Under the pieces are notes generated by a model. That model was given only the letters and a program-made list of their open reading frames with translations. It did no database searches and was not told the DNA's origin. Of a DNA stretch of 64,000 nt, positions 23,298-41,006 are shown piece after piece (positions within the stretch are counted from its first letter, which is position 1; the number at the start of each line of letters is the position of its first letter). The translations under genes and the position numbers were made by a program. Source of the stretch: Salinibacter grassmerensis. Its GTDB lineage: Bacteria > Bacteroidota > Rhodothermia > Rhodothermales > Salinibacteraceae. Where the stretch lies: NCBI RefSeq assembly GCF_947077765.1, contig NZ_CAMTTF010000001.1:470818-534817 (forward strand). The letters are read 5' to 3'.

Positions 23298-23361
23298 TCC
23301 CAGGCGACGGTCCGTCTTTCCCTTCACGCCTATCGTTTTGAACGAAGACACCTGAGTGCGC

Positions 23362-24246
23362 ATGCGACTGGACCTTGGCGGCGCCTTTGCAGCCCTCATC
23401 GAGTGGATTCAGAATAACCTTGGGCCGTTACTCGACGGGGTAACCTTCGTGATTGGGGCGACCATCGAAGGACTGGAGGAGGTGCTACTCTTTCTGCCGA
23501 GCTGGGCAATGATTCTGCTCTTCACCCTCCTTGCGTGGTGGGTAGCATCCCGCGGTGTGGCCATCTTTACGGCGGTTGGGCTGACCCTCCTTGAGGGCGT
23601 GGAGTTCGCCCTATTCGGAATGGAGATTGCCTTCGGCATGGGACTGTGGGAGCCCACGATGCAGACCCTGGCGCTCGTCGCGACGGCGACGCTGATCTCG
23701 CTCCTCATCGGAATTCCTGTGGGCATCTGGGCGGCCAAAAATGACGTGGTGGACGCCATCGTCCGGCCGATTCTGGACTTCATGCAGACGATGCCGGCGT
23801 TCGTGTACCTGATTCCGGCCGTCGTGCTCTTCGGGCTGGGAGAGGTGCCGGGCGTGATCGCTACCTTCATCTTCGCCACGCCTCCGTGCGTGCGCCTGAC
23901 CAACCTCGGCATTCGGCAGGTGTCGGAGGAGGCCGTGGAGGCGGCGGAGTCCTTCGGGTCCACCCCGCGTCAGATGCTCTTCAAGGTAGAGTTGCCGATG
24001 GCGCTGCCCACCATCCTGGCGGGGGTAAATCAGACGGTGCTCCTGGCCCTGTCGATGGTCGTGATTGCTGCGCTCATCGGGGCCGGCGGGCTGGGGAATC
24101 CGGTCGTGGAGGGCATCCAGCAGCTGCGCATCGGGGTCGGGTTTGAGGGGGGGCTGGCCATCGTCATTCTGGCCATCTTCCTGGACCGCATTACGCAGGC
24201 CGTGGGGGAGAAGGCAGGCGCGTCGACCCAGCCCACGACAGGGTGA
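23362..24246 (+). CDS. proW: Glycine betaine/proline ABC transporter, permease
   Basis: A 294-residue inner-membrane permease of the ProW/OpuAB type. About six to seven hydrophobic helices are visible. The conserved cytoplasmic loop that docks on the ATPase is EAAESFGSTPRQMLFKVELPMALPTILAG. DFMQTMPAFVYLIPAV and LSMVVIAALIGAGGLG are also family hallmarks. A GTG two codons upstream (23356) is an alternative start; I give the ATG at 23362. It follows proV by 64 bp and precedes proX by 159 bp on the same strand. Confidence 0.95.
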   Translation: MRLDLGGAFAALIEWIQNNLGPLLDGVTFVIGATIEGLEEVLLFLPSWAMILLFTLLAWWVASRGVAIFTAVGLTLLEGVEFALFGMEIAFGMGLWEPTMQTLALVATATLISLLIGIPVGIWAAKNDVVDAIVRPILDFMQTMPAFVYLIPAVVLFGLGEVPGVIATFIFATPPCVRLTNLGIRQVSEEAVEAAESFGSTPRQMLFKVELPMALPTILAGVNQTVLLALSMVVIAALIGAGGLGNPVVEGIQQLRIGVGFEGGLAIVILAIFLDRITQAVGEKAGASTQPTTG

Positions 24247-24405
24247 TTCACGCGTGCCGTCTCTTGAGGGGGCGAGACATCCGCACACAACTCGCACACA
24301 ACACGGCTCGGAGAAGGGCCTCCTGAATACCCTTTGTCCGGGCACTCTTCTTCGCTTTGCCGCACGACCTAGACACTCACCATCACAAGCAAAAGCCTTA
24401 ACGCT

Positions 24406-25395
24406 ATGAATCTTTCTTCGACACCACTTCGCTCGTTCATTGCCGTTGTCGCGGCCGTTGGTCTCCTTGGGACCGGGCTCGCCGGCTGTGGAGGGAGCGG
24501 GGACAGCCAGGACGTATCGCGCGAGATGAACATGGTCACAGTAAACTGGATTGAGGGGATGGCCTTCACCTACGTCCAGGAGCAGATCATGGAGAACCAG
24601 TACGACATGGAGGTTGACGTTCGAGAGGTCTCGGGCGGTGGCCTCGCCTTCTCGTCGGTGGCCGACGGCGACCGCGACTACTTCAACGAGGCCTGGCTCC
24701 CCACCACCCACCAGGACCCCTGGAGCAAGGCGCAGGGAAATGCCTCCAAGCTGGGGTACACCTACAAGGGCACGTCGGTCGGACTGACCGTGCCGGAATA
24801 CATGGACATCTCCAGTGTCTCGGAGCTGGGAAATTACCGCGATGAGCTCAACGGCGAAATCAACGGCATTGAGTCCGGTGCGGCGATCAACGACCAGACG
24901 CGCCAGATTCTCGAAAACAACAACATCGACGGGTTCTCGGTCGTGGCGTCCAGCGGCCCGGCGACGTGGCAGGCGCTGGAGAACGCCGTCAACAACGAGC
25001 AGCCCATCGTCGTCACGGGTTGGTACCCACACTGGAAGTGGGGCTCGTTCGACCTGAAGTACATCGAGGGAGCGCAAACGGGACAGTCGCCCGTCTTTGG
25101 AAATCCTGAGGACGTCTTCAAGATCGTGGACAGCGAGTTCACGGAGGAGTTTCCGAAGGAGGTCGCGTGCTTCCTGAAGGTATCGGAGGTCAGCGACGAG
25201 CAGATCGAGAGCCTCATGGGCGACTTCCGCAACCGCGGCGACATGAGCAAGCGGGAGGCTGCCAGCCAGTGGATTGAGGAGCACCCGGAGGACGTCAACG
25301 CCTGGACGGATCAGGCCGAGGAGTGCGCTGCGTCCGACGGCGCAGTGGAGACGCTCCCGGACGACGCCACCTACTCGCGCGAGCAGGGCGCGTAG
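24406..25395 (+). CDS. proX: Glycine betaine ABC transporter, substrate-binding lipoprotein
   Basis: A 329-residue periplasmic binding protein of the OpuAC family. A lipoprotein signal peptide ends in the lipobox LAGC (Cys26 lipidated). The mature part is acidic. Ligand-binding aromatics of the family are likely Trp49 in VNWIEGMAFT and the Trp residues of EAWLPTTHQDPW and GWYPHWKW. The product would deliver betaine or a similar quaternary amine to ProVW. The TAG stop at 25393 is followed by a terminator hairpin, then, still in the same frame, by a second, diverged copy of residues 205-329. Confidence 0.94.
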   Translation: MNLSSTPLRSFIAVVAAVGLLGTGLAGCGGSGDSQDVSREMNMVTVNWIEGMAFTYVQEQIMENQYDMEVDVREVSGGGLAFSSVADGDRDYFNEAWLPTTHQDPWSKAQGNASKLGYTYKGTSVGLTVPEYMDISSVSELGNYRDELNGEINGIESGAAINDQTRQILENNNIDGFSVVASSGPATWQALENAVNNEQPIVVTGWYPHWKWGSFDLKYIEGAQTGQSPVFGNPEDVFKIVDSEFTEEFPKEVACFLKVSEVSDEQIESLMGDFRNRGDMSKREAASQWIEEHPEDVNAWTDQAEECAASDGAVETLPDDATYSREQGA

Positions 25396-25425
25396 GAGAC
25401 CGGCTTTGGAATTGACGACGTACTA

Positions 25426-25460
25426 CCCCCGATCGCTGTCTGGCGGTCGGGGGTATTTTA
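25426..25460 (+). terminator. Rho-independent terminator after proX
   Basis: An 11-bp stem (25426-25436 with 25443-25453, one G-U pair) closes a 6-nt loop and is followed by TATTTTA. It begins 31 bp after the proX stop and separates proX from the remnant copy downstream. Confidence 0.75.
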
Positions 25461-25854
25461 TGGATGGACATGGCGCCAATGGAAGCCGCACTGGACGTGG
25501 AGCGCGTTCGCCTCCGATACCTCCAGGGAGGGGAAGACGAATCAGCCGCCCGCCTACAGGCCGCCCGAGGATGGCTTCACGGTCGTTGACAACCAGTTTA
25601 TCGACGAATTCCCGAAAGAGGCCGTCTGCTTTCTGCAGAAGTTTGAGGTGGACGACCAGCAGGTCGGCAGCCTCATGAACACGTTTCGCACCCGGGGCGA
25701 CATGAGCAAGAGCGGGGCTGCTGAGCAGTGGGTGCGGAACCACCCCGAGCACGTCACGCAGTGGCTCGGCCAGGCCGAGGCGTGTGCGACCGCGGACAAG
25801 GCCGTGACGCCCCTCCTTAACGATGCCACCCACTCGCGCGACCAGGGTGCGTGA
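25454..25854 (+). pseudogene. Remnant of a second OpuAC-type binding protein (C-terminal half)
   Basis: The frame that continues past the proX stop stays open to 25854. From about 25459 it encodes a clear relative of proX residues 205-329, with Trp-Lys-Pro-His-Trp-Thr-Trp against the proX GWYPHWKW. In an ungapped hand alignment of the last 95 residues I count about 55 identities. Landmarks include EFPKEAVCFL against EFPKEVACFL, the identical RGDMSK, and DATHSRDQGA against DATYSREQGA. No ATG lies ahead of the homologous part; the first usable start is a GTG at 25648. The N-terminal domain and signal peptide are absent. It is probably the tail of a decayed tandem paralogue. Confidence 0.75.
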
Positions 25855-25931
25855 AGCTCTGCATCCGGCCGTGCCTTAAGCCCCGCCCTGATAACATTAT
25901 CGCAATCTCTTTCCCCGATCTACACGCCGTG

Positions 25932-25952
25932 ACCGGATCACCTCCGGTTTAT
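25932..25952 (+). terminator. Weak hairpin after the proX remnant
   Basis: ACCGGA and TCCGGT form a 6-bp stem with a 5-nt loop, followed by TTATT. It could be the old terminator of the decayed gene or a leader element of the porin gene at 26009. Confidence 0.3.
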
Positions 25953-26008
25953 TCTGTAGCACTACGCTACCCTCTGCAACCCTTTCTCACAATGCGCGAT
26001 TTTCCCAT

Positions 26009-27430
26009 ATGAACCACATGAATCGGTACTGTACTGCAGTTTTCGCGCTCTTTCTCACCGCTGGATTGATGCTCCCCGGCTCGGCCCTCGCCGACGACCC
26101 GGAGCCCGCTGATGACAGCACCAACGCCACCTCCCTCGTCGCCAACGCCTGGGAGAGCGATAACACGACGGCGGCGCCCCAGCAGGACGAGCCGACGCTC
26201 GACGTGAGTGTCAACGGCTCGATCCGTTTCAATGCCCTCTTCCGCTCGTACGGCACGGCATTAGAAGGAGGGAATGACCGTGTGCTCGGTGATGGTGGAT
26301 TCACCTTCGACACCTTCCGCATTGGAGGAAGTGGTTCCTACGGAGGCTTGATCTTTGACTCTGAGCTTGCCGTGTACCCGGAATCCTTCGGTGGGGTGTT
26401 TCTCCAGAAGGGATGGGTCGGTTATGAGTTTAGCGACGCCCGTCAGGTTCAGGTTGGCGTGAGTCAGGTGCCCTTTGGCATCCAGCCGTACGCCTCCAGC
26501 AGCTGGTTCTTCAATAGCTCGTACTACGTCGGCCTGGAGGACGACTACGACGCTGGTGTCAAGGCGATGTTCACGCCCGGCAACTGGGACATCCAGGGTG
26601 CCTATTACATGAACGCCGAGCAGACGGACTTCTTCGCCGGCCAGAACTTCTCCCGCTACTCCTACGACGTGGCACCGAACAGTTCAGCGAACTATCACGT
26701 GGTGCCGGGTGACAACCGTCTCACTGAAGACGGAGAGGTCTTAACTCCTGAAGACGCAGCAGAAAATCCTGCTGTCATAGGTAACCTGCGCTCCGATATT
26801 ACGGAACAGCACCAATTCAACGTGAAGGTGGGGTATACCTTCGACCACGGTGATCTTGGCTCGACAAAGATTGGCGTTTCCGGACAGCGCGGTCAGCTTC
26901 AAAACCTGGACACGGGGGACACGGACTGGCACGCCGCGTATGCCGCTCACTTCCGGGGTCGCTACGCTGGATTTGATGCCAAGCTCCAGTTCTCGCAGCA
27001 AGAGTTGAATGCGCCCCTCACGCAAGAGGAAAAGTCCACCTTCAATGACTTGGCCGACGTGAACTACGGTGCGGAAGACTTTGTGGTGATGGGAGCCTAT
27101 GCCTTCCCGCAGCGTGTGGCGGCCGAGCACACGGTGTACTCGTCTAGCCTGGCGTACCACATTCCGGTGAACGCCGGCCCGATTTCGGAGATCAAGCCGT
27201 ACTATGACTTCAGTCTCGTCACAAAGAACGTGGACGCGTGGAACGACAACGCCACCCACGACATCGGCTTCCTCACGACGGCGGGACCGCTGTTCGTGTA
27301 CACGGACTTGAATATCAGCAAGGGTCATCCGTTCAACCACCCCGCCGATAATTTCGCGAGTGTGATGGCGGAGAACAACGATAACGAGTGGCGGACGGCC
27401 TTTAACCTGAACATCGGGATCTACTTCTAA
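26009..27430 (+). CDS. Outer-membrane porin-like protein
   Basis: A 473-residue secreted beta-barrel protein. The signal peptide (residues 1-28, ending GSALA) is followed by an acidic, low-complexity segment (DDPEPADDSTNATS) and then by alternating amphipathic strands from about residue 68 (LDVSVNGSIRFNALF) to the C-terminus GIYF, with a terminal Phe. Segments such as QVQVGVSQVPFGIQP and the YYVGLEDDYDAGVKAMFTP loop resemble porins of the OprO/DcaP type. Its gene follows the glycine betaine operon and has its own perfect terminator. An outer-membrane pore for osmolytes or substrates is a reasonable guess but is not shown by sequence. ATG codons at 26009 and 26018 are both possible starts. Confidence 0.8.
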   Translation: MNHMNRYCTAVFALFLTAGLMLPGSALADDPEPADDSTNATSLVANAWESDNTTAAPQQDEPTLDVSVNGSIRFNALFRSYGTALEGGNDRVLGDGGFTFDTFRIGGSGSYGGLIFDSELAVYPESFGGVFLQKGWVGYEFSDARQVQVGVSQVPFGIQPYASSSWFFNSSYYVGLEDDYDAGVKAMFTPGNWDIQGAYYMNAEQTDFFAGQNFSRYSYDVAPNSSANYHVVPGDNRLTEDGEVLTPEDAAENPAVIGNLRSDITEQHQFNVKVGYTFDHGDLGSTKIGVSGQRGQLQNLDTGDTDWHAAYAAHFRGRYAGFDAKLQFSQQELNAPLTQEEKSTFNDLADVNYGAEDFVVMGAYAFPQRVAAEHTVYSSSLAYHIPVNAGPISEIKPYYDFSLVTKNVDAWNDNATHDIGFLTTAGPLFVYTDLNISKGHPFNHPADNFASVMAENNDNEWRTAFNLNIGIYF

Positions 27431-28701: not shown

Positions 28702-29943
28702 CTACGGCGTCTCCGCCACGCTCGGGGACTCGGGCGAGGCCTCGTCCACCGAGGCGAGTGGCGGCTCCGGCAGGCCCCAGTGCACGAGGCCGGCCATGCC
28801 GATCATTGCGAGCGCGCCGCCGACGGCATTGCTGAGGAAGCCGTAGGGCCCGTACGTGATGCTGGCCACGAAGCTGCCGAACCCGAACCCGGCCTGGCCC
28901 ACGCTCATGGCGAGGCCCATGAGGAGGCCGCGCTGGCGATCCGGCACGAGCGCCGTGATGAGCGACTGCAGGGGGCCCACGCGAATGCCGATGAGGCCCA
29001 TGGCCAGGAAGAAGAGTACGGCCGCAATGAGGAACCCTGTGATGTAGAGCGGGGCGAGTGCCATCAGCAGGCCGAGGATCAGCGACGCCCACACCACGAT
29101 CGGCTTGCGCCCAATGCGGTCGGAGACCCGCCCCCCGAGCGGGGACGCGAGGATGTTGGCGGTGCCCCCGATGGCGAAGAGGAGGGCGATCTCGTAGCTC
29201 GACACGCCCACCGTGGACTCGAGCCAGCTCGGGAGGAACGACGTGAAGAGCCCGAAGCCGGAGAACATGAGGAGGTACGACGCCACGGCGTTCACGGCGT
29301 CGGAGCCCTGGAGCACGGCCCGGTATTTCTCGACGAGGCGGGCCGGCGTGAGCCGTTGGTCGTCGAGGTCGGCGTCCGGCTGCGGGACGAACAGCCAGAT
29401 CAGCACGGCCGACACGGCCATGGGGACCGCAAACATGAGAAAGGGCCACCGATAGCCGAAGCCAGTCGCGAGCACCTTGCCGATCGGGATGCCGGCCACC
29501 TGCCCGAAGGCCGTGCCGCTCATCACCCATCCGTTGGCCCACCCGCGCTGCTCGTACGGGAAGTAGTCCCCCACGTAGGCCACCGAGCCGCTGGTCAGCA
29601 TGCCGCCCCCGACGCCCGCCAGCAGGCGCATGGAGAACAGCAGGACGTAGCTCTCCGCCACTGTGTGCAGGGTGAGCGTGACGGCCATTAGGATGGTCCC
29701 GTACAGCAGGATGAGGCGGCGCCCAATGCGGTCGGACGCCGGGCCCGTAATGAGGGCCGACACCCCCAGCGACAGCGCGTAGGCCGTCAGCAGCATGCCC
29801 TGCCAGAACGCGTTCACCCCGAGCGTCGCCGCAATCTCGGGGAGAATGGGCACCATGATGATCAGCTGGCTGCTGGCCGAGAACATCATCAGCCAGAGCG
29901 CAAAGAGAATCAGGTACGGGTTCGAAGTTTTCGTGTCGGGCAC
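28702..29943 (-). CDS. Major facilitator superfamily transporter
   Basis: A 413-residue inner-membrane transporter with about 12 hydrophobic helices. The conserved loop 2-3 motif is GPASDRIGRRLILLYG, and its repeat in the second half is GGRVSDRIGRKPIVV. Helix 5 contains GTAFGQVAGIPIGK. The overall look is that of the DHA1 drug:proton antiporter group, but the substrate is unknown. The central loop (residues 205-225) is acidic. Transcribed alone; its leader region of about 380 bp is shared with the divergent TonB receptor gene. Confidence 0.88.
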   Translation of the reverse strand: MPDTKTSNPYLILFALWLMMFSASSQLIIMVPILPEIAATLGVNAFWQGMLLTAYALSLGVSALITGPASDRIGRRLILLYGTILMAVTLTLHTVAESYVLLFSMRLLAGVGGGMLTSGSVAYVGDYFPYEQRGWANGWVMSGTAFGQVAGIPIGKVLATGFGYRWPFLMFAVPMAVSAVLIWLFVPQPDADLDDQRLTPARLVEKYRAVLQGSDAVNAVASYLLMFSGFGLFTSFLPSWLESTVGVSSYEIALLFAIGGTANILASPLGGRVSDRIGRKPIVVWASLILGLLMALAPLYITGFLIAAVLFFLAMGLIGIRVGPLQSLITALVPDRQRGLLMGLAMSVGQAGFGFGSFVASITYGPYGFLSNAVGGALAMIGMAGLVHWGLPEPPLASVDEASPESPSVAETP

Positions 29944-30327
29944 GAAGGAAGGCGGTGGATGAAAGAGGTGGAGAAGCTTGAAATGTAAGCCCTTAAACTG
30001 AGGAGGAAGCGGGCCACATGCAGAACGCAGACCGAAATATTCAACGAAATTCGCCGTCGTCCTACGGCGGTGGATGCTAGATGGTACAGGGGAGATCCAT
30101 GCGTGGACCAGCCAGCATTCTGTGGGCAGTGCGCGTGAAAGAGACCTCCGGACGCAGCCGAGTAAGGGAGAAGACAGATTAGTTAATGTAACGGTGATCT
30201 GTGCGTAATAGTGACATTACGCACAATTCGTATTGTGTAGCCTGCGTTCCAGTTCGCCCACTGTACCCACAGTGCGCCACGAACTTGGCACTTTCGCTGA
30301 TTTCCCTTCATAACTTCGCTCATCTTG
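29944..30327. other. 384-bp divergent regulatory region
   Basis: No gene is seen. It separates the MFS gene (minus) from the TonB-dependent receptor (plus). Its most striking content is the pair of overlapping inverted repeats at 30200-30237, in an A/T-rich setting. Confidence 0.6.
30200..30237. promoter_or_regulatory. Overlapping inverted repeats upstream of the TonB receptor (candidate operator)
   Basis: A perfect 9-bp inverted repeat, TGTGCGTAA (30200-30208) and TTACGCACA (30217-30225), has an 8-nt spacer. A second perfect repeat, CACAAT (30222-30227) and ATTGTG (30232-30237), overlaps its right arm. There is no T-run, so it is unlikely to be a terminator. The symmetry and the site about 90-130 bp before the receptor start suggest binding of a dimeric regulator. 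The regulator is not identified. Confidence 0.55.
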
Positions 30328-33156
30328 ATGCCTGAGCCCTGGATGCGACGCACGCTCACGGTCGCCCTGGTCGCGCTGATGGTTGTCGGTCCCGATGCGG
30401 CCGTGGCGCAGGACGCGGCGCCGACCGGAGCCGTCACAGGGGTGGTCGTGGAGGAGCAGCGTGGGGCGCCCCTCCCGGGAGCGAACGTCACGATCGAGGG
30501 CACCTCGACGGGCACCTCGACAGACCTCGACGGGCGGTACCGCATCGACGAACTTGAGCCGGGGACGTACGACCTCGTCGTCTCGTTCGTCGGGTTTCAG
30601 AAGAAGACCGTGACGGGCATAGAGGTGGCGGCCGGAGAGTCGACTACCCTCGACGTCGCGCTCGCCGAAGAGACCGAGCAGCTCGAAGAGGTTGTGGTTC
30701 AGGCACAGGCGGCTCGGGACTCCGAAGCAGGCCTGCTAAAGGAGCGGGCGAAGGCTGCGTCGGTCGTGGACGCGATCAGTGCCGAGGCCATCGGCAAGTC
30801 GGGAAGCTCGACGGCGGCGGGGGCCATTAAGAAGGTGACTGGTGCCTCCATCACGGAAGGAAAATTCGTCAATGTGCGTGGGCTAGGGGGACGGTACGTC
30901 AACGCTCAGCTCAACGGCGCGGAGCTTCCCAGTGCCAGCCCCAACAGCAATTCGGTCCCGCTCGATCTCTTTCCAGCTGGGCTGCTCGACAACATTGTGA
31001 CGAGCAAGACCTTCACGCCAGACGAGCCCGGCAATTTTACAGGGGGGAATGTTGATCTTAGTACTAAGTCGTTCCCTGAAAGGCGGACGCTGTCTTTCTC
31101 AAGCTCGGTCACCTACCACAGTGAGGCCCGCTTCGACGATATTCTCCGCCAGAACGGCGGGTTGGACCGGGTGCCCGGCGTAGTCCCGTCGCTGCCCGAG
31201 GGCGATCTCAGGGCTGAGAATCAGCCCATTCCTCCGTACTTCGGGGCCAATCAGCAGGAGCGTCAGTTTCTGAACGACGTAACCAACGCGTTCAGTCAGA
31301 GCAAAATCACGCCTCAGCGAAAGGCCGGGCCCATCAACCAGGGCTACTCGGCGTCGTTTGGCGACCAATTTCAAATCTTTGATGGAATGCCCCTTGGGGT
31401 GGTAACGGGGATCACCTACAGTCGGAGTACGAGTGCATCTCGGAATCGTCGCTCCGCTAGTGCAGGGCCTGTGTCCGACGAAAGCATAACGCCCGACTTC
31501 CAATTCAGTGGCGAGAGCGGGTCAACTGAAGAAGTGCTTGGTGGAATTGCCAACTTCTCGTTCAAGCCCCATCCCGACCACGAAATTTCCCTCAACAGTC
31601 TGTACAACCAGTCGAATGAGCAGTCGGCAGTCTTCTTGACGGGCTCTATTCCGCGGGACGACGACAATCGAATTTTTGACCGCCGCCGATTGGAGCCCAT
31701 CGACCGAACGGTCTGGAACGTGCAGGGAAAGGGAGAACACCTACTGGGCGGTGGCAGCGACAGCCCACGACTGACATGGAACTCGTCGTACTCGAAGACG
31801 ACGCAGGATGAATCGGACGTTCGGTTCTTTACCGACGATCGTCTCCCCGACCGGGACGTGCACCGCATTGCGACATCGATCTACGAGTTTCCGACGCGCT
31901 ATTTCCGAAACCTCTCGGAGTACACGTGGGGCAACGATCTGGAAGTATCGGTGCCGTTCGGATTCGGAAGTCTCAAGGTAGGAGGGACCTATCAGTATCG
32001 GGAGCGAGATCTCAACGAGCGTCGATTCATCTACGACAATCTAAATTCTCCAGGATATGAAGGCGCCCCCAACACATACTTTAGCAAATGTGCCGGCTTC
32101 ATTGACGAAGGCGAGTGTGATAGCGGCCCCTATCAGGGTACTGCTCCCTCCGACCTCGGGGTCGTGATTCAGGAGCAGACCTCCAACCAGAACAACCTAG
32201 TCGGGGACCGTACCGTGGGGGCCGGCTTCGCAATGGTCGATACGGAGGTGCCGGGCCTGCCGGCCCTCCGATTCATCGGGGGACTTCGGATAGAGCACAC
32301 GGATCAATCCATCGAAACGAGGGACGGGCAGACCGGACAGATTACAGAGACGGACCTTCTGCCCTCGGCCAATCTGGTGTATGCCCTCCGCGAAGACATG
32401 AACGTGCGGGCGGCCTATGGACGCACACTGGCGCGTCCGACGTTCCGAGAATTCTCGCCGGCGACCTACTACGACTTTAAGCGACAAGAGATCTTTGACG
32501 GCGACCCAACGCTGAAGCGAACCCTTGTCGACAACGTGGACCTCCGCTGGGAGTGGTTTGCGGGGCCGGGGGAGCTGCTTGCGGTCACCGGGTACGCAAA
32601 GTCGTTCCAGGACCCGATCGAGCGGGTCGTCGTGGAGCAGGCCATCAATCGTGAGGTTACATACCAAAATCAGCGGAGCGCGGAGATATATGGGGCCGAG
32701 TTTGAGGCGCGGAAGCGGCTTGGGTTCGTGTCGAACGCACTTCGTCATTTCGAACTAGGAGGAAACCTGACGCTTACTGAATCGACGGTCACGGACACGT
32801 CGGGGCAGGCGCTGGGACGTCCGCTCGAGGGGCAGTCGTCCTACCTGATCAACGCAGACCTGTCGTACGACAATCCGAATAGTGAGACCATTGTCTCCGT
32901 CTTCTACAACTACTTCGACGATCGCCTCGACACCATCGAGCGCCAGAACCAGCCCAATCAGTTTGAGCGTGGGCGGCACACGGTCGACGTCGTGGCCTCT
33001 CAGGGCCTGCCCTTCGGCGTCAAGATGAAGGTGTCCGTCAAGAATGTGCTCAATGAGGACACCGAAGTATACCAGTCTTTTCCGAGCGCGGAGTTTACGA
33101 CGGTCCGATACAAGGAGGGGCGTACAATTTCCGTTGGGTTCACTTATAGCCTCTAA
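30328..33156 (+). CDS. TonB-dependent outer-membrane receptor with N-terminal CarboxypepD_reg-like domain
   Basis: A 942-residue active-transport receptor of the outer membrane. A signal peptide (to about VAQ) is followed by a carboxypeptidase-regulatory-like beta-sandwich (residues 30-115: TGVVVEEQRGAPLPGANVTI and GRYRIDELEPGTYDLVVSF), as in many Bacteroidota receptors. The plug domain (about 130-270) shows NVRGLGGRYVNAQLNGAELP and the SKTFTPDEPGNFTGG motif. The rest is the 22-strand barrel, ending TISVGFTYSL. ATG codons at 30328 and 30343 are both possible; the second gives a tighter signal peptide. It is not SusC-like in pairing: no SusD follows, but a lipoprotein gene does. The ligand is unknown. 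Confidence 0.9.
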   Translation: MPEPWMRRTLTVALVALMVVGPDAAVAQDAAPTGAVTGVVVEEQRGAPLPGANVTIEGTSTGTSTDLDGRYRIDELEPGTYDLVVSFVGFQKKTVTGIEVAAGESTTLDVALAEETEQLEEVVVQAQAARDSEAGLLKERAKAASVVDAISAEAIGKSGSSTAAGAIKKVTGASITEGKFVNVRGLGGRYVNAQLNGAELPSASPNSNSVPLDLFPAGLLDNIVTSKTFTPDEPGNFTGGNVDLSTKSFPERRTLSFSSSVTYHSEARFDDILRQNGGLDRVPGVVPSLPEGDLRAENQPIPPYFGANQQERQFLNDVTNAFSQSKITPQRKAGPINQGYSASFGDQFQIFDGMPLGVVTGITYSRSTSASRNRRSASAGPVSDESITPDFQFSGESGSTEEVLGGIANFSFKPHPDHEISLNSLYNQSNEQSAVFLTGSIPRDDDNRIFDRRRLEPIDRTVWNVQGKGEHLLGGGSDSPRLTWNSSYSKTTQDESDVRFFTDDRLPDRDVHRIATSIYEFPTRYFRNLSEYTWGNDLEVSVPFGFGSLKVGGTYQYRERDLNERRFIYDNLNSPGYEGAPNTYFSKCAGFIDEGECDSGPYQGTAPSDLGVVIQEQTSNQNNLVGDRTVGAGFAMVDTEVPGLPALRFIGGLRIEHTDQSIETRDGQTGQITETDLLPSANLVYALREDMNVRAAYGRTLARPTFREFSPATYYDFKRQEIFDGDPTLKRTLVDNVDLRWEWFAGPGELLAVTGYAKSFQDPIERVVVEQAINREVTYQNQRSAEIYGAEFEARKRLGFVSNALRHFELGGNLTLTESTVTDTSGQALGRPLEGQSSYLINADLSYDNPNSETIVSVFYNYFDDRLDTIERQNQPNQFERGRHTVDVVASQGLPFGVKMKVSVKNVLNEDTEVYQSFPSAEFTTVRYKEGRTISVGFTYSL

Positions 33157-33227
33157 CAGTAATCTACGATTAGCTCTACGACTGGACATTTCGACCTCGG
33201 ATGTCCCTGCTGGCATCCAGCGAAGAC

Positions 33228-33254
33228 AAGGCGAGCCATCGCGGCTCGCCTTTT
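33228..33254 (+). terminator. Rho-independent terminator between receptor and lipoprotein genes
   Basis: A 10-bp stem (33228-33237 with 33243-33252), 5-nt loop, and TTTT at 33251-33254. It lies 72 bp after the receptor stop, so the lipoprotein gene at 33363 probably gets either its own promoter or read-through. Confidence 0.8.
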
Positions 33255-33362
33255 GGCATTTCTGAGCCCCCCGTTATGGAAGTGTTATGCGGCTGTGGGG
33301 ACTGCAGTGTGGGCTCGGGACACGCACCTACAACGTCTCTTCATGAACTCAACAACAACGGC

Positions 33363-34931
33363 ATGACCAACGTGAATCAACACACCATCAGTGCACGATC
33401 GTGGCTTCGGATCGGACTCGCTTTACTGGTCGTCCCGGCCATGATCCTGTTCACGGGTTGTGACAATAACGACAGTGGAATAGACGACGACATGGACGAT
33501 GGCCCGCCGGGGGGCACCTCGGCGACTGATGCTAACTACGCCAACTACGACACGACCGAAGCAGCGGTTGTCTTTGGTGAGCAGTCCGGCAATGATCTAG
33601 GCGTTGTCCCGGACGACGCGTCAGACAACGAGAACGTGCGGGAGAACTACGTGAAGTGGACGAGCGATCACACGTACCATCTCGACGGACGAACTTTTGT
33701 GAACTCGGGCGATACCCTGGAGATTGAACCCGGTACGGTCGTGAAGGGCATTCCCAACCAGGACCCAAATAATGCTAGCGTGTTGGTCGTGGCACGAGGG
33801 GCGACGATTCTGGCCGACGGCAATCCGGGGAGCAACACCCCCAGCGAGGCCGACCCGATCATCTTCACCACTCGGGAAGATGACGTGAGCGACCCGAACG
33901 ATCTGAAGCCGAATCTTGATGGGGCCTGGGGGGGCGTGATCATTCTCGGCAATGGACCGAAAAACTTCCCTGGATCCCGCAATGTCGAGGGCATCCCGTC
34001 GGACGTGAATCGTGCGTCGTTCGGGAGCGATAGTCCCGATCCGAACGATGACTCTGGCGTCTTTCGGTTCGCCCACATCCGCTATGGTGGCATCTCCATC
34101 GGGGCTGGCAATGAGATCAACGGCCTTACGATGGGCGCGGTTGGCTCCGGAACCACGATCGAGTGGGTAGAGGTCTTCAATAACCAGGATGACGGCTTCG
34201 AGTGGTTCGGCGGCAACGTGAATGCCCGCTACCTCTTCGCCAGCCGCGTCGGGGATGACTCCTTCGACATTGACCAGGGCTTCAGCGGCAACCTGCAGTT
34301 CCTGCTTGCCATCCAGGCGCCGACGCGCGGCGACCGCACCGGCGAGCACGACAGTGGAGACGACGGCTACGGCGGAGGCGACGAGGGAGATACGCCGGTC
34401 GCCAATCCGCAGATTTACAACGCCACCTACATCGGCTCTGGACCAGACGGAGACGGTGATATCGCGCTGAAGCTCCGCGATAACTTTGGAGGCAACTACT
34501 TCAATTCGATCTTCTACGACTTCCCGGTGCAGTTTATCGAGGTGGAAGAAGCCTCGGGACCGGACAGTCGGGCACGCTGGGAGAACGGCGAGTTGACGGT
34601 TGAAAGCAGCATCACCTGGAAATTTGGATCAGTGCAGGATGCCAGCACTCCCTTTGAGGATCTCGTCGAGAATGGCGGGTCGTGGGGCACTACAGTGGCC
34701 GACGATCTTGAAAACAGCTACAACGTAACCTACGAGAACCCGGGTCTCTCGCGCGATCTCTCGGGTGATTTCCAGACAGTGGGAGTCATTCCGACGAACG
34801 ACGTGAGCGGTGGCCAGACGCCGAGCGGGTCGTTCTTTGAAGACGTGTCTTACCGGGGCGCCTTCGATCCCAGTGGAAGCAACTGGGCCGCAGGGTGGAC
34901 CTTCAGTGATGAGGTTGGCATGTTCCAGTAG
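33363..34931 (+). CDS. Secreted lipoprotein, likely beta-helix type, partner of the TonB receptor
   Basis: A 522-residue exported lipoprotein. The lipobox is LFTGC with Cys33, followed by an Asn/Asp-rich tether (DNNDSGIDDDMDDG). The mature part has recurring beta-strand turns typical of right-handed beta-helix proteins: GDTLEIEPGTVVKG, ASVLVVARGATILADG, WGGVIILGNGP, FRFAHIRYGG, TIEWVEVFNNQDDGFEWFGG and GDDSFDIDQGFSG. The acidic D-D-G-F and D-D-S-F-D motifs could hold calcium. I recall similar lipoproteins beside TonB receptors in other Gram-negatives, with function unsettled. The longer frame upstream of 33363 lacks coding character. It has its own strong terminator. Confidence 0.82.
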   Translation: MTNVNQHTISARSWLRIGLALLVVPAMILFTGCDNNDSGIDDDMDDGPPGGTSATDANYANYDTTEAAVVFGEQSGNDLGVVPDDASDNENVRENYVKWTSDHTYHLDGRTFVNSGDTLEIEPGTVVKGIPNQDPNNASVLVVARGATILADGNPGSNTPSEADPIIFTTREDDVSDPNDLKPNLDGAWGGVIILGNGPKNFPGSRNVEGIPSDVNRASFGSDSPDPNDDSGVFRFAHIRYGGISIGAGNEINGLTMGAVGSGTTIEWVEVFNNQDDGFEWFGGNVNARYLFASRVGDDSFDIDQGFSGNLQFLLAIQAPTRGDRTGEHDSGDDGYGGGDEGDTPVANPQIYNATYIGSGPDGDGDIALKLRDNFGGNYFNSIFYDFPVQFIEVEEASGPDSRARWENGELTVESSITWKFGSVQDASTPFEDLVENGGSWGTTVADDLENSYNVTYENPGLSRDLSGDFQTVGVIPTNDVSGGQTPSGSFFEDVSYRGAFDPSGSNWAAGWTFSDEVGMFQ

Positions 34932-34965
34932 CAGCCTCTCAGAGAGCAATCCCTAATCCCATACG

Positions 34966-35006
34966 CGCCGGGCGCCCGCCGTTTGTCGGGCGTCCGGCGT
35001 TTTTTA
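34966..35006 (+). terminator. Strong Rho-independent terminator after the lipoprotein gene
   Basis: A 13-bp stem (34966-34978 with 34987-34999, one mismatch) with an 8-nt loop is followed by TTTTTTATTT. It lies 35 bp past the stop. Confidence 0.9.
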
Positions 35007-35132
35007 TTTGGGGACCCCGAGGTTATGTAAGGAACTCCGGCCTCCGACTGGAGCGGGGAACGGAGCACATGGGGCTCGTGTGCGTGTGGTAGTCTAGTCG
35101 AAATCTCCCACGCACCACGCACCGGCCCCCCA

Positions 35133-36284
35133 ATGGCGCTGCGCTGTCTTTTTGTCGTCCAGGGCGAGGGCCGCGGCCACCTTACGCAGGCGATGGCCCT
35201 GCGGTGCATGCTCCGAGACGCCGGCCACCGGGTGGAGGCGGTCGTCGTGGGCAAGAGCGATGACCAGGCCGTTCCGTCCTTTTTCCGCGCGGCGTTTGAG
35301 GCCCCCGTCACAGACGTCGAGAGCCCCGGCTTCGTGTCGGACGACGCAGACCGCTCGGTGCGGCCCTGGGCCACGCTACGCCGGGCGCTCGGGCGCACGC
35401 CCGCCTTCTGGCGCAGCCTGTCGACCCTCGACGACGCGATCGAGCGCCACGAGCCGGATGTGGTGGTGAACTTTTTTGAGCCCCTAGTGGGCCTCTACGC
35501 CGCAACGCATGCGCCGTCCGTGCCGGTGGTGGCGGTGGCGCACCAGTACATGTTCTTGCACCCCGACTACCAGTTTCCTCCGGGGCGTCCGGGACGACGG
35601 TGGGCGGCCCGCGCGTTTGCCCGGCTTACGGCCTGGGGGGCGTCGCGGCGCCTTGCGCTCTCGCTCTATCCGGCCCCCGATCGGTCGGGGGATGACCTGG
35701 CCGTGCTGCCGCCGCTCCTGCGGCCCGGGGTGTTTCGGCAGCCGCAGGACCGACGCGAGCCCTTCATCCTCGCCTACATTCTGAACAGCGGGTACGCCGA
35801 CGAGGTAATCCGGTGGCACGAGCAGCACCCGGACGTGCCGCTCCACTGCTTCTGGGACCGGCCGGGCGCGGCCCCCGTGGAGGCCTACGACGAGACGCTC
35901 ACCTTCCACCAGCTCGACGACGAGAAATTCCTGCACCTCATGGCCCGGAGCCGCGGCTTCGTGTCCACTGCCGGCTTCGAGTCGATCGCGGAGGCGATGT
36001 ACCTGAAGACGCCGGTCCAGGTGGTGCCGGTCGAGGGGCACTACGAGCAGCGGTGCAACGCCGTTGACGCGGTACGGGCCGGGGCAGGGGTGTGCAGCAC
36101 GCAGTTCAACATCGGACGCCTCCGGGCGGCGTTGGACCGCGGGTCCGCCCAGGACGGCCGGTTCCAAGAGTGGGTGCGGCAGGGGCGCCGCCGGTTTGTC
36201 CGAGAGCTCGAGGCGGCCGCCCGGCACCCTGTCGCCGCGCCCCCAGTCTCGCCGGTGGCGGAGCGAATTCTCGAGGCGGCCTGA
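35133..36284 (+). CDS. Glycosyltransferase, MurG-like GT-B fold
   Basis: A 383-residue cytosolic or membrane-associated glycosyltransferase. The N-terminal loop VVQGEGRGHLTQA matches the glycine-rich acceptor-side loop of MurG-like enzymes. The donor-binding C-terminal part has STAGFESIAEAMYLKTPVQVVPV, and a late region EGHYEQRCNAV is typical of the group annotated from the archaeal MJ1255 family. No signal peptide. It is monocistronic or leads an operon with the EEP-type gene 134 bp downstream. The sugar donor and the acceptor are unknown. Confidence 0.8.
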   Translation: MALRCLFVVQGEGRGHLTQAMALRCMLRDAGHRVEAVVVGKSDDQAVPSFFRAAFEAPVTDVESPGFVSDDADRSVRPWATLRRALGRTPAFWRSLSTLDDAIERHEPDVVVNFFEPLVGLYAATHAPSVPVVAVAHQYMFLHPDYQFPPGRPGRRWAARAFARLTAWGASRRLALSLYPAPDRSGDDLAVLPPLLRPGVFRQPQDRREPFILAYILNSGYADEVIRWHEQHPDVPLHCFWDRPGAAPVEAYDETLTFHQLDDEKFLHLMARSRGFVSTAGFESIAEAMYLKTPVQVVPVEGHYEQRCNAVDAVRAGAGVCSTQFNIGRLRAALDRGSAQDGRFQEWVRQGRRRFVRELEAAARHPVAAPPVSPVAERILEAA

Positions 36285-36418: not shown

Positions 36419-37519
36419 ATGGGGCTCCGACGCGTGTTGCGGATTCTATCGTGGAGTGGGGCCGGGCTGCTGGTCACTGCGTTCCTGGTCGGCTACGCGG
36501 CGCCGTATCTTCCGCCGGCCCGCTTCTGGTGGACGGATCTGTTTGCCGTGTTGCTCCCCGTCCTTGCCGGGGCGGTTGGACTACTGAGCGTCGGGCTGAT
36601 GGGGCAGGGGGCCTACCGGCAAGCATGGGGGCGCGTGGGGGTGGGTACGGTGCTGCTCCTGCTCGTCGCGGTGCGGTTTGGGACGGTGCCGACGGGACAG
36701 GCATCGGAAGGAGAGGCGGCGGCGCTGCGGTTGATGACGTTCAATCTGTCTCCTGTATTTGCCCGCGGGCCGGACCGTGAGCGTACGCTGGCCGAACTCG
36801 TCCATCGGGAGGCCCCTGCCGTGCTGAGTGTCCAGGAGACGTGGATGAAAACACGGCCGGCGTCGGACGGCGGCGTCCCGTTGGTGTCCTGGCCGCTCCG
36901 GGTGCTCCTGGAGGACTCAGTGGGGTACGCCCTGCCACGTGCCTGGCCCCCCGAGACCATGATCTACCGGCCGGTACTGGGGCAGGTGCGACTAGACTCA
37001 ATGAGTGTGCACCCGTTGCCCCCGTCCGGCGGGTCCAATCCCCGTTCTCGTTACACGCGCACCCACTTCACCTGGCAGGGGCGCCCCGCCGTGCTCTACA
37101 ACGTGCACCTCCACACGGTGGGCACCCGTCCTTGGGACCTGCGGGGGACGGTCCCATCGCTTGGTCGCTGGTGGGCCTTCCTGCGGACGTATCGAGAGGG
37201 GGCCCTTCACCGCGCCGACCAGGCCCGCCGGATCCGCCGGCACATCGAGCAGGAAACGCGACCGGTGCTCGTGGCGGGCGACTTCAATAGCACCCCGCAC
37301 CAGTGGGCCTACCGGCACCTTCTGCAGGGCCTGCAGGCGGCGGGTGGGGGCGCAACCTTCCCGGCCGGGTGGCCCCTCGTACAGATCGACCACGTCCTGG
37401 CCGGGCCGGAGTGGCGCGTCGACTCGGCCACCGTGCCAGAGCTCGAGGCCATAGATTTCGTTTCGGATCACCGTCCCGTCGTCGCCCAGGTCCGGTGGCG
37501 GGACGACTACGAGGAGTAA
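36419..37519 (+). CDS. Membrane-anchored endonuclease/exonuclease/phosphatase (EEP) family protein
   Basis: A 366-residue protein with three hydrophobic segments in the first 105 residues (about 8-30, 37-62 and 75-95), then an EEP catalytic domain facing outward. Catalytic motifs are LMTFNLSPVF near residue 107, the metal-binding Glu in SVQETWMK, a NVHLHTVGTR segment, VAGDFNSTPHQWAY and the final SDHRPVVAQV. Such membrane-attached EEP proteins may act on phospholipid head groups or nucleic acids outside the cell; the substrate is not known. The tail overlaps the convergent phoU gene by 13 bp. Confidence 0.85.
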   Translation: MGLRRVLRILSWSGAGLLVTAFLVGYAAPYLPPARFWWTDLFAVLLPVLAGAVGLLSVGLMGQGAYRQAWGRVGVGTVLLLLVAVRFGTVPTGQASEGEAAALRLMTFNLSPVFARGPDRERTLAELVHREAPAVLSVQETWMKTRPASDGGVPLVSWPLRVLLEDSVGYALPRAWPPETMIYRPVLGQVRLDSMSVHPLPPSGGSNPRSRYTRTHFTWQGRPAVLYNVHLHTVGTRPWDLRGTVPSLGRWWAFLRTYREGALHRADQARRIRRHIEQETRPVLVAGDFNSTPHQWAYRHLLQGLQAAGGGATFPAGWPLVQIDHVLAGPEWRVDSATVPELEAIDFVSDHRPVVAQVRWRDDYEE

Positions 37520-38217
37520 GACGAGCGGAGGGGCGATGTGCTGCCGGGGTCCATCTCTTCCTGCACGCTGGTGTGGCGGATGTCGACGCCCTCAATAAGA
37601 AAGACGACGCCCTTCGCGATATTGGTCGAGTGGTCCGAGATCCGCTCGATGGCCTTGCTGGCGGTGATCAGGTGGGCGGCCACCTCGGCGTGCTCCGGAT
37701 TCTTCTGGATGTAGTCCACCAGCCCCCGAAAGTTTTCGTGGTGGAGGCGGTCCACTTCGTCGTCGAGATCGGGAATGCTGCGGGCCAGTTCCGCGTCCTG
37801 GTCCAGGAAGGCCTGCTTCGCCTCGTCGAGCATGCGGCGGGCTGCCTGGCTCATCCCACGGATTTTGACCGCGTCCAGGACCCCGGGCGCCTCGGTCACG
37901 TGCTCCGCGTTGCTGGCCAAGTTGCGGCAGTGGTCCCCGATCCGCTCCAGGTCGGTATTGATCTTTTCGGCCGTGAGCAGGGTGCGAAGGTCGGTGGCCA
38001 CCGGCTGGTGGCGGGCCAGGATGCGCTGACAATACTCGTCCACCTCCAGCTCTAGGGCATCGACCTCGCGGTCGCGATCCATGACGCGCTCGGCCTGGTC
38101 CACGTCGCGGGCAAGCAGGGCGTCCACGGCATCGGTAAACTGCTCGGCCACGATGGTGGCCATGTCGAGCAGGCGACTGCGAAGCTCAGTAAGTTCGCGG
38201 GCGAGGCGGTTGGGCAT
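37507..38217 (-). CDS. phoU: Phosphate-signalling complex protein PhoU
   Basis: A 236-residue cytosolic regulator made of two three-helix repeats. Each repeat carries the metal-binding acidic motif: TDLERIGDHCRNLA in the first and KAIERISDHSTNIAKGVVFL in the second. PhoU links the Pst phosphate importer with the PhoR/PhoB system, but no pst, phoR or phoB gene lies in this window, so it is a solitary locus. The C-terminal 20 residues (EEMDPGSTSPLRSSYSS) extend past the usual end and overlap the EEP gene by 13 bp in antisense. Confidence 0.93.
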   Translation of the reverse strand: MPNRLARELTELRSRLLDMATIVAEQFTDAVDALLARDVDQAERVMDRDREVDALELEVDEYCQRILARHQPVATDLRTLLTAEKINTDLERIGDHCRNLASNAEHVTEAPGVLDAVKIRGMSQAARRMLDEAKQAFLDQDAELARSIPDLDDEVDRLHHENFRGLVDYIQKNPEHAEVAAHLITASKAIERISDHSTNIAKGVVFLIEGVDIRHTSVQEEMDPGSTSPLRSSYSS

Positions 38218-38335: not shown

Positions 38336-39568
38336 TCAGGCAGGCCTGGTCGGCGAACCGTTGCTTCGTATGAAGGGGGGTGAGGAGCGATCCGTCGCGC
38401 TGGCGTCGGGCGGTGTGCCCTGTCTCCACACGGTGCGCAGCACCGACAGGTACGTGTCGGCGACGGCGGGCCACCCGAAGGTGTTTTCGGTGTGGCGCAG
38501 GGCGCGTTGCGCGGCGGCGTCCAGGGCGTTAGAATCGTTGTGGTACGTCGTGATGGCGTCCACGAACGCCCTGTGCGACTGTGGGGCTACGAGATGGCCG
38601 TTGACGCCGTCAGTGATGACGTCCTGGATGCCTTCGAGACGGGCGGCGATGGCGGGGGTGCCGCACTGGCCCGCTTCGAGCAGGACGATTCCGAAGCCCT
38701 CCATGTCGTCCTCGACGGGCACATTCGGCATGATGAACAGGTCGGCCCCGCGGTAGAGATGGCCCAGCGTGCTGTTCGGAATGCGACCGAGGAGGCGGAC
38801 GCGAGGTGATAGGTTGTGTCGCGCGATGGCGGTCTCGATCGTGTCGAGCTCGGGGCCGTCGCCCGCAACCCAGTAGTGAACGTCGTCGGGGAGACGGGGC
38901 ATCACCGTGTCGACAAACCAGGCTGTGCCCTTCCGTTCAACCTGTCGCCCCACGCTGCAGAGCAGGAGCCCGTCGGGCGGGGGAGAAGGGGGAGATACGT
39001 CCACGCTCTCGTCCAGCGCCTGGCGGGCCGCTGGCCGGTCGGGGGGGGGCTCGAAGCGGTCCGTGTCGATGCCGTTGGGCACGACGCGGAGCTGGTCGGG
39101 GGCGGCCCTGCGGTCGAGGCAGGCCTGGCGGGTGGCCCGGCTGACGGGAAGCACCGCGTCGAGGGCGCCGAACACCTTCGGAACGAACCACTGGTAGGGC
39201 GGAAACGGAGTCGTCACGTCCAGTCCGTGTACGATGGCGGCGGTCCGTACCCCGTGTTGGCGGAGCAGGCCCTGCAGGGGCACTGCGAGGCCGGCCGTCA
39301 CCATCGATGAGAAAAGCACCACGTCGACATCGTTCTGCCGGGCGGCCTGGGCAATCTGCCAGCCGGCCCGGGCGAGAAACAGGGGCGTCTTCAGGTGAAC
39401 CGTGCGCCAGGCACTGCGCAGCAGCAGGGCGTCGTAGTCGAGCGCGTCCGCGTCGGCGCGGGCCTGCAGGGTCTCGTGGAGCTTGAGGGCAACGCGTTGC
39501 ATGCCGCCCACGTTGGCCAGTGGGCGGCCCTCGGGCGGGAGCGAATGGGAGACGAACAGGAGACGCAC
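38336..39568 (-). CDS. Glycosyltransferase family 4 protein
   Basis: A 410-residue GT-B glycosyltransferase. It begins MRLLFVSHSLPPEGRPLANV, with the glycine-containing N-terminal loop (NVGGMQRVALKLHETL). The C-terminal Rossmann part has the nucleotide-sugar motif EGFGIVLLEAGQCGTPAIA, with the two conserved Glu residues seven apart, and RLLGRIPNSTLGHLYRGADL. It follows a second GT4 gene (39596) by 27 bp on the same strand, so the two probably form a unit for cell-surface glycan or glycolipid synthesis. Acceptors are unknown. Confidence 0.9.
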   Translation of the reverse strand: MRLLFVSHSLPPEGRPLANVGGMQRVALKLHETLQARADADALDYDALLLRSAWRTVHLKTPLFLARAGWQIAQAARQNDVDVVLFSSMVTAGLAVPLQGLLRQHGVRTAAIVHGLDVTTPFPPYQWFVPKVFGALDAVLPVSRATRQACLDRRAAPDQLRVVPNGIDTDRFEPPPDRPAARQALDESVDVSPPSPPPDGLLLCSVGRQVERKGTAWFVDTVMPRLPDDVHYWVAGDGPELDTIETAIARHNLSPRVRLLGRIPNSTLGHLYRGADLFIMPNVPVEDDMEGFGIVLLEAGQCGTPAIAARLEGIQDVITDGVNGHLVAPQSHRAFVDAITTYHNDSNALDAAAQRALRHTENTFGWPAVADTYLSVLRTVWRQGTPPDASATDRSSPPFIRSNGSPTRPA

Positions 39569-39595
39569 GGGGGCGGGCCGACAGGTGGGAAGACG

Positions 39596-40831
39596 TTACG
39601 CAGGGGCCCCCGCTGGGGCTGGGTCTTGCGGGGAGGGAGACGGATGATGGGGAAGCACCTCGTCGTAGTACCGGCTCATGCGGTTGAGGACGGCGGGCCA
39701 GGTAAAGTCCTGGGCGCGCTTGCGGGCGGCGGTGCCCATCCGGTCGCGGCGCACATCGTCGACGATCAGGGTGCGCGCCGCCTCGGTGAACGCATCGACA
39801 CGTCCAGGAGAGCAGAGCCGGCCCGTGGTGCCGTCGTTCACGAGGTCGCGACTGCCGGCCGCGTCGGCACAGACGGTCGGGAGGCCGGACGCCATCGCCT
39901 CCAGGGTGACGTTGCCGAACGTTTCGGTGTCGCTCGGGAACAGAAAGACATCGGACGAGGCGTAGGCCTCCGCCAAGTCGGTGCCATCGAGGAAGCCGGT
40001 AAAGGTGGTGTTCGGCAGGCGGGCTTCCAACTCCTCCCGGGCCGGGCCGTCGCCCACGACCAAGCTATGGTGGGGGACGTCCTGACGCTCCAGCCGATCG
40101 ATGACGTCGGCGTACACGTCGAGCCCCTTCTCCCACACGAGCCGACTCACGAACGCGACGACCGCCTCGTCGTCGCCAATCCCGTGGGCCCGCCGCCACC
40201 CGCCGGAGCGGTGGCCCGGCGCGAAGCGGTCGGTGTTTACCCCGCGGGGCCAGAGCCGAAGGTCGCTGTCGATGCCGTGTCCCCGAAGCACCTCCGCCAT
40301 GGCGTGGGTGGGGACGTAGACCTGCCGGCACTGGTTGTAAAACGAGCGCAGATAGCTCCAGACGGGCGTCTCCAGCAGGTCGAGGTGGTAGTACTTCAGG
40401 TAGGAGCTGAAGTGAGTGTGGTAGGAGGCCACCACGGGCGTGCCGGTGTCCTGAGCGTGTTGGAGGGCGTTGTGGCCCAGGAGGTCGGGCGTGGCGATGT
40501 GGTACAACGTCGGGGCAAAGTCGTCCAGCGCGTCCTGGACGGAGGGCGTGAGGCCCAGCGAGAGCCGGTATTCCGAGCGGCCGGGCACCGGCAGGGACGG
40601 CACGGACGTGAGCGTGCCGGCGTGGTCCTCGATGGCCGGGTCGTCAACCGTGGGGGCGAAGACGCGCACCTCAGCACCCTGTTGCTCGAGGTGCCTGACG
40701 AGGCGGTTGAGCGTGAGCGACACCCCGTCGGCGATGTGGGTGTAGGCCCCGGCAAAGAGCGCGATGCGCCTGGATGAGCGGTGGGCGGGACGATCGGCGC
40801 GTGAAGAAGACAAATCGGGGGTGGGGGGCAT
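39596..40831 (-). CDS. Glycosyltransferase family 4 protein (MgtA/SQD2-like)
   Basis: A 411-residue glycosyltransferase. The N-terminal FAGAYTHIADGVSLTLNRLV and the mid region VSRLVWEKGLDVYADVIDRL resemble the group containing MgtA and SQD2, which act on diacylglycerol lipids. The donor motif is FPSDTETFGNVTLEAMASGLPT, with its E-x7-E pair. I use the ATG at 40831; a TTG seven codons upstream keeps the same frame. It is the first gene of a two-gene glycosyltransferase unit with 38336-39568. Glycolipid synthesis is a plausible role, from resemblance only. Confidence 0.9.
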   Translation of the reverse strand: MPPTPDLSSSRADRPAHRSSRRIALFAGAYTHIADGVSLTLNRLVRHLEQQGAEVRVFAPTVDDPAIEDHAGTLTSVPSLPVPGRSEYRLSLGLTPSVQDALDDFAPTLYHIATPDLLGHNALQHAQDTGTPVVASYHTHFSSYLKYYHLDLLETPVWSYLRSFYNQCRQVYVPTHAMAEVLRGHGIDSDLRLWPRGVNTDRFAPGHRSGGWRRAHGIGDDEAVVAFVSRLVWEKGLDVYADVIDRLERQDVPHHSLVVGDGPAREELEARLPNTTFTGFLDGTDLAEAYASSDVFLFPSDTETFGNVTLEAMASGLPTVCADAAGSRDLVNDGTTGRLCSPGRVDAFTEAARTLIVDDVRRDRMGTAARKRAQDFTWPAVLNRMSRYYDEVLPHHPSPSPQDPAPAGAPA

Positions 40832-41006
40832 GTGAGTCGAAGGCGAGGGCAAAGAGCTCTACGCAAAACGGCGTCCAGGACATGGGTGGAAGGCCCACGC
40901 TGCGTCTGTAGCCTGGGAAGGATCCTCAAGACTGTGAAGCCGCTCTCAGCCAGAGGAAAGTAACGCAGGCCCTCCTCCCAGGTACTCAAAAAGAGCAATC
41001 GACACC

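Follow-up and report, generated by a model that had tools for sequence, protein, structure and literature searches.

Introduction

The surface lipoprotein ElpS (CC0170) of Caulobacter crescentus is made only under phosphate starvation (PMC2996285). Its gene adjoins the one for the receptor CC0171 and a type II secretion system (T2SS), in an arrangement described by Le Blastier et al., and the co-occurrence of elpS/CC0171 genes across genomes, with homologues in Shewanella and Bacteroides, has already been noted (PMC2996285). The T2SS neighbourhood is the proteobacterial arrangement, and homologues outside it have been reported. CC0171 is reported to be constitutive, deletion of elpS left alkaline phosphatase activity unchanged, and purified ElpS shows no such activity (PMC2996285). 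A comparable arrangement comes from Flavobacterium johnsoniae, where Lidbury et al. found that the receptor Fjoh_0545 and the lipoprotein FII (Fjoh_0546, with a pectin-lyase fold) adjoin phoBR (PUSIV), and that a related pair consists of FI with its TBDT (Fjoh_3856/3857, PUSIII). Both pairs rise on Pi depletion, not on N or Fe depletion, and plant cell-wall targets have been suggested for them (PMC8115612).

Little is known of how diderm bacteria take up phosphorus in forms other than free phosphate through the outer membrane, and a literature search for phosphate receptors of Salinibacter found none. In other settings, TonB receptors work with a ligand-capturing surface lipoprotein that is not SusD, as in BtuB-BtuG of B. 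thetaiotaomicron and TbpA-TbpB of Neisseria. Here, a receptor-lipoprotein pair is analysed in a window of 64,000 nucleotides from Salinibacter grassmerensis (contig NZ_CAMTTF010000001.1, positions 470,818 to 534,817; Table 1). An earlier note, made from the sequence alone, took it for a possible undescribed uptake system; the same kind of pair is already on record in Caulobacter (PMC2996285) and Flavobacterium johnsoniae (PMC8115612), and the value that remains lies in the breadth of the family, a conserved regulatory site and the question of the ligand.

Table 1. Features of the receptor-lipoprotein locus and its surroundings, in window coordinates.
Feature	Position	Strand	Evidence or remark
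Divergent MFS transporter	28702-29943	-	recurrent upstream neighbour within the order
Pho-box-like array, four tandem 11-bp units GTTAATGTAAC GGTGATCTGTG CGTAATAGTGA CATTACGCACA	30182-30225	+	matrix score 24.6
Perfect 9-bp inverted repeat TGTGCGTAA-N8-TTACGCACA	30200-30225	.	overlies array units 2-4
Second inverted repeat CACAAT-N4-ATTGTG, overlapping the first	30222-30237	.	sequence; imperfect in nearest relatives
Possible -10 element TATTGT, 5 bp past the array	30231-30236	+	by eye; similar TA-rich hexamers in relatives
TonB-dependent receptor	30328-33156 (ORF start 30325/30328)	+	CarbopepD_reg_2, Plug, TonB barrel (Pfam)
Weak terminator, perfect 8-bp hairpin (33230-33250) and four Ts, 3' of receptor	33230-33254	+	sequence
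Two-unit repeat CATAACACTTCCATAACGGGGG in receptor-lipoprotein gap	33268-33289	-	score 15.2
Surface lipoprotein, ElpS/FII-like, predicted right-handed parallel beta-helix	33363-34931 (ATG start)	+	522 aa, lipobox LFTGC (Cys33)
Strong intrinsic terminator, hairpin and T run (34965-35000), 3' of lipoprotein	34965-35008	+	terminator scan
Glycosyltransferase (PF13528, PF04101, MJ1255/VC2487-like)	35133-36284	+	recurrent downstream neighbour
Endonuclease/exonuclease/phosphatase-family membrane protein	36419-37519 (start estimated from relatives)	+	recurrent in close relatives
PhoU	37507-38217	-	phoU_full, 198.8 bits against a cut-off of 130.25

Relation to ElpS and FII

The link to the described pairs runs through intermediates. 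Plasmids of Sphingomonas and Indioceanicola carry homologues in the order lipoprotein-receptor-gspN/D/E, which is the order of ElpS, CC0171 and the T2SS genes (PMC2996285). The window lipoprotein is 35% identical to the Sphingomonas homologue over 231 aa, and the window receptor is homologous to the receptor of the same Sphingomonas arrangement. A profile comparison between the window family and a divergent ElpS/FII-like set returns a probability of 100 (E 8e-75). Judged by homologues and gene order, rather than by the ElpS and Fjoh_0546 sequences themselves, the window pair appears to be of the ElpS/CC0171 and FII/TBDT kind. One family across phyla would link the scattered reports on ElpS and on FI/FII.

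Breadth and constancy of the pair

The lipoprotein family is present in 53 of 60 relatives sampled within the order and in 38 of 41 flavobacterial-family genomes sampled, and a species-level genome collection holds it on at least 566 stretches. Among the best 80 loci are Bacteroidota, Rhodothermota, Ignavibacteria/Chlorobiota, Kapaibacterium, Zixiibacteriota, Latescibacterota, Delongbacteria, Neomarinimicrobiota, Verrucomicrobiota, Gemmatimonadota, an Acanthopleuribacter and Chitinivibrionales. Homologues of the lipoprotein in Pseudomonadota were found among plasmid records, and the pair as such spans about a dozen phyla.

The earlier note had joined the two genes on their order and export signals, and the survey of genomes that it called for finds a conserved pair. 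Among lipoprotein loci with at least 4 kb on both flanks, 86 of 92 have a same-strand adjacent receptor of the same family, up- or downstream (28/28 order-level, 40/45 collection and 18/19 flavobacterial-family loci). Adjacency by chance would be rare, because the genome has 29 plug-domain matches and a single gene for the lipoprotein family. The pairing is genuine and well supported.

In L097, L109, L112 and L115, which make up four of the six exceptions, a porin-like gene precedes the lipoprotein instead, and the porin of L109 exceeds the Porin_O_P cut-off. This arrangement, with the porin-like gene directly before the lipoprotein and mostly with PiT ahead, is one of Bacteroidales-type loci, and L071, L098 and L124 show it as well. 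Some of these loci have no adjoining receptor, as though either porin or receptor could serve as the partner of the lipoprotein.

Properties of the two proteins

The earlier note had described the receptor as carrying an N-terminal CarboxypepD_reg-like domain and its partner as a 522-residue lipoprotein that is not SusD and bears acidic D-D-G-F / D-D-S-F-D motifs. The first description is borne out by the Pfam domains and the second by the sequence, which has DDGF at residues 276-279, DDSFD at 298-302 and an acid-rich stretch past the lipobox cysteine. The model of the receptor (pLDDT 81.9) is an ordinary TonB-dependent barrel with FecA as its best VIA match (Z 37.8). Its fold is nearest to siderophore and cobalamin receptors, as is that of most receptors; these matches are uninformative on the ligand, and reading one from them was dropped.

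For the lipoprotein, no Pfam or NCBIfam family passes and no SusD domain is found. Searching the PDB by sequence gave nothing useful and no relative of solved structure, and a match to a serpin (E 0.017) was taken as chance. A family this widespread, which keeps company with Pho genes and a Pho-box-like promoter, is yet without a family model or structure. The predicted structure is a parallel beta-helix (pLDDT 81.1), for which VIA returns alginate epimerases/lyases, phage tailspikes, NosD and polygalacturonases at Z 19-22 (alginate epimerase/lyase 8ja4, 22.2; AlgE4, 20.5; NosD, 20.0; polygalacturonases, about 19), with pertactin and Vag8 also among the fold matches. Foldseek matches are weak (best E-value 1.1e-3, TM 0.2-0.3). 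The modelled fold is clear, and its likeness to any enzyme class is one of fold only.

Invariant acidic residues of the family are D276, D277 and E280, then D298, D299, D302 and D304, and further along E328, D330, D373, E395 and D401. Judged from their spacing along the chain, these recurrences every 20-30 residues suggest a conserved groove running along the coils of the beta-helix. Could the lipoprotein then be an enzyme? As a lyase, epimerase or hydrolase at the cell surface, it might release phosphorylated pieces of polymers or of cell-wall material, with the receptor importing the products. The best fold match, 8ja4, leads a group of polysaccharide-acting beta-helix enzymes, a groove on successive coils would give just such a spacing of acidic residues, and the plant cell-wall targets suggested in Flavobacterium point the same way (PMC8115612). 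However, the parallel beta-helix is also the fold of non-enzymes such as NosD, pertactin and Vag8, and the Foldseek scores are weak. Binding is ranked ahead of cutting on two grounds, the likeness of the pair to BtuBG and TbpAB and the lack of phosphatase activity in purified ElpS (PMC2996285). An enzymatic role is possible but rather unlikely.

In some relatives, a T9SS sorting tail takes the place of the lipobox, so both forms are expected outside the cell. The beta-helix unit is duplicated in L036, L038, L060, L067, L082, L104 and L133, either in tandem genes or fused into domains of about 1000 residues, with up to three copies.

Phosphate genes around the pair

Clustering of neighbouring genes without a prior list found PhoB-like regulators, PiT, PhoR, PstC/A, PstS, PstB and PhoU to be recurrent, together with polyphosphate kinase and an LpxH/PlcP-like phosphoesterase; the identities were checked, and Pho genes were dominant. 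Counted at fixed score cut-offs over a range of about 9 kb, with the loci that supplied query sequences left out, 34 of the 78 pair loci taken from the genome collection and the flavobacterial family have Pst, PiT, PhoU, Ppk or PhoBR nearby. None of 39 controls does (Fisher p = 5e-8); the controls represent this clade, flavobacteria and a single verrucomicrobial genome rather than every phylum. They comprise 20 random regions and 19 other receptor loci of the Salinibacter grassmerensis genome. At the majority of pair loci, no phosphate gene lies inside about 9 kb.

Gene orders differ between groups. Alteromonas has phoB, phoR, pstS, an oxygenase, the lipoprotein, the receptor and ExbB/ExbD/TonB in succession. 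On plasmid pBGP9 of Alteromonas macleodii (L159), a 1356-residue protein holds three lipoprotein-type domains, and the phoBR-pstS cluster of the plasmid includes a receptor with its own ExbB/ExbD/TonB set. Flavobacterial-family homologues of the lipoprotein adjoin phoBR or PiT; one relative that was checked reads lipoprotein-TBDT-PhoB-PhoR-PF04101.

Might the pair serve another nutrient, such as iron, zinc or carbon, with the phosphate neighbourhood being a matter of history? A receptor fold nearest to siderophore and cobalamin receptors would allow it, if no more than for most receptors, and the divergent MFS neighbour has no link to phosphate. But Pho genes dominate the recurrent neighbours in an unbiased clustering, they are found at 0 of the 19 other receptor loci of this genome, the promoter is Pho-box-like, and the Flavobacterium johnsoniae pairs respond to Pi and not to N or Fe (PMC8115612). 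Service to another nutrient is improbable.

Other genes of the window lie further out. Two GT4 glycosyltransferases (38336-40852) stand beside PhoU, the second of them closest to N-acetylglucosaminyl phosphatidylglycerol synthase, below the cut-off, and a candidate for low-phosphate lipid remodelling. With glycosyltransferase and PlcP-like genes among the neighbours, lipid remodelling may be switched on in the same response. At 22200-27430, a glycine-betaine-type ABC transporter (ATPase, permease, OpuAC) is followed by a porin-like protein without a Pfam match, and similar ABC-transporter/porin-like genes lie ahead of the pair in close relatives. This porin, at 26009, was considered as phosphate-selective and the idea was dropped, as Pfam does not recognise it. 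A Met-zincin (DUF4953/DUF5117) metallopeptidase-like protein is encoded on the minus strand at 41097-43766.

The receptor promoter

The array of 11-bp units ahead of the receptor gene has the top score in the window, 24.6, on a matrix built from relatives, with the window and the four promoters nearest to it left out; no other independent site in 128 kb (both strands) exceeds 5.2. Of the four units of the array, two (TGAT, ATTAC) are degenerate. Among 36 relatives, the receptor promoters hold 61 TAAY pairs at 11-bp spacing, where 0.33 are expected from shuffles, none of which gave more than 3; the signal echoes at 22 and 33 bp. The same spacing prevails at 75 loci from the collection, plasmids and the flavobacterial family, with 107 pairs at 11 bp and 56 at 22 bp versus 4 to 18 at other spacings. 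The repeat also occurs directly ahead of the operon phoB-pstSCAB-phoU of the same genome, where it is the best two-unit site across the surrounding 19 kb, with a score of 20.6 and the next at 10.6, and it is enriched before PiT genes. Promoters of the MFS and glycosyltransferase genes show no excess of 11-bp-spaced repeats.

Pho boxes are known to take the form of tandem 11-nt repeats (PMC4415409), and the array resembles in sequence the cyanobacterial Pho box CTTAACCT, which has a 3-bp linker (PMC1906773). The array is read here as a predicted Pho box, consisting of 11-nt direct repeats ahead of phosphate genes. Such a promoter is consistent with production only under phosphate starvation, and the predicted site provides a handle on the Pho regulons of Rhodothermota and other phyla.

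The earlier note saw something else at this place: two perfect, overlapping inverted repeats, taken as the operator of a regulated pair. Both repeats are present. The larger one, with its perfect 9-bp arms, is the only match in the window at up to 3 mismatches (0.01 expected), as might befit a true operator of a dimeric repressor or activator, acting besides or in place of PhoB control. However, no second copy was found elsewhere in the genome, and the palindrome is missing from the promoters of relatives, where direct repeats of 11 bp in tandem are shared; L042, L024, L026 and L043, the nearest relatives, lack the symmetry of the arms but retain the direct repeats. The array units GTAAT and ATTAC moreover explain about half of each arm. 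Unconserved and unique in the genome, the palindrome was rejected as operator, and a role of this sort is highly improbable. Its absence from orthologous promoters, which the note had named as a refuting outcome, counts against the palindrome but leaves the pairing and the regulation unaffected: the pair is probably regulated, as claimed, through the Pho-box-like repeats.

The note had also given each gene its own terminator. The lipoprotein gene does end in a strong one, but the receptor gene has only the weak hairpin with four Ts, which the terminator scan does not list and which recurs in the same place in L042 alone among 38 relatives. The repeat in the gap between the two genes points the wrong way for the lipoprotein gene; reverse-orientation gap sites scoring at least 12 occur in 16 of 39 loci including the window (15 of 38 relatives).

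The genome's only perfect three-unit TAAY array (L250:10778-10821; G000:C4:218790-218815) sits between another receptor gene and its upstream neighbour, oriented opposite to that receptor, and a PKD-domain lipoprotein gene comes after the receptor gene.

A proposed model for phosphorus uptake

The favoured reading, at a probability of about three in four, is that the two proteins form an outer-membrane pair under Pho control that serves to acquire phosphorus, the lipoprotein capturing or processing a phosphorus ligand for import by the receptor. Under phosphate scarcity, a PhoB-type regulator would act on the tandem 11-bp repeats at 30182-30225 and switch on the receptor. The lipoprotein would probably be co-induced, either via the same array or via the conserved reverse gap site. 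At the cell surface, its beta-helix would catch, or partly process, a phosphorus-containing ligand and hand it over to the TonB-dependent receptor, which would import it. Set against this reading are the two degenerate units of the array, the orientation of the gap site, the many pair loci lacking a nearby phosphate gene and, in Caulobacter, the reportedly constitutive CC0171 and the unchanged alkaline phosphatase activity after elpS deletion (PMC2996285).

Comparison with known uptake systems

With ElpS/CC0171, the window pair shares a homologous surface lipoprotein beside a TonB-dependent receptor and a connection to phosphate starvation. The order differs: Caulobacter has lipoprotein-receptor and then the T2SS, whereas the window has receptor-lipoprotein, and type II secretion genes were found neither in the stretch of the window examined nor among recurrent neighbours. 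The window receptor has a CarbopepD_reg domain, unlike the Sphingomonas receptor.

The resemblance to FII and PUSIV extends to a TBDT with a beta-helix lipoprotein, to Pho genes and to a PF04101/PF13528 glycosyltransferase, also present in the window; what the glycosyltransferases of the window and of the flavobacterial relative have in common is just these broad Pfam families. The window neighbour is PhoU and not phoBR, and the receptor barrel is PF00593, whereas that of Flavobacterium is listed as PF14905.

SusCD and PusCD likewise combine a TonB receptor bearing an N-terminal CarbopepD_reg domain with a surface lipoprotein. However, the window receptor reaches 78.7 bits against SusC/RagA (TIGR04056), through its N-terminal domain alone, where the cut-off is 368.25, and its partner is a predicted beta-helix without a SusD domain. 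SusCD membership was rejected on these grounds, and the earlier view of the pair as distinct from the SusCD type stands.

Structures of the BtuBG and TbpAB systems appear among the fold matches of the receptor. The likeness to these systems is one of architecture, not of lipoprotein ancestry; the folds and ligands of the lipoproteins differ. A beta-helix lipoprotein with a TonB receptor may form a further class of uptake complex beside SusCD and BtuBG, serving energised import of phosphate-ester or polyphosphate-like ligands in about a dozen phyla; this broader proposal is tentative, its chances falling slightly short of even.
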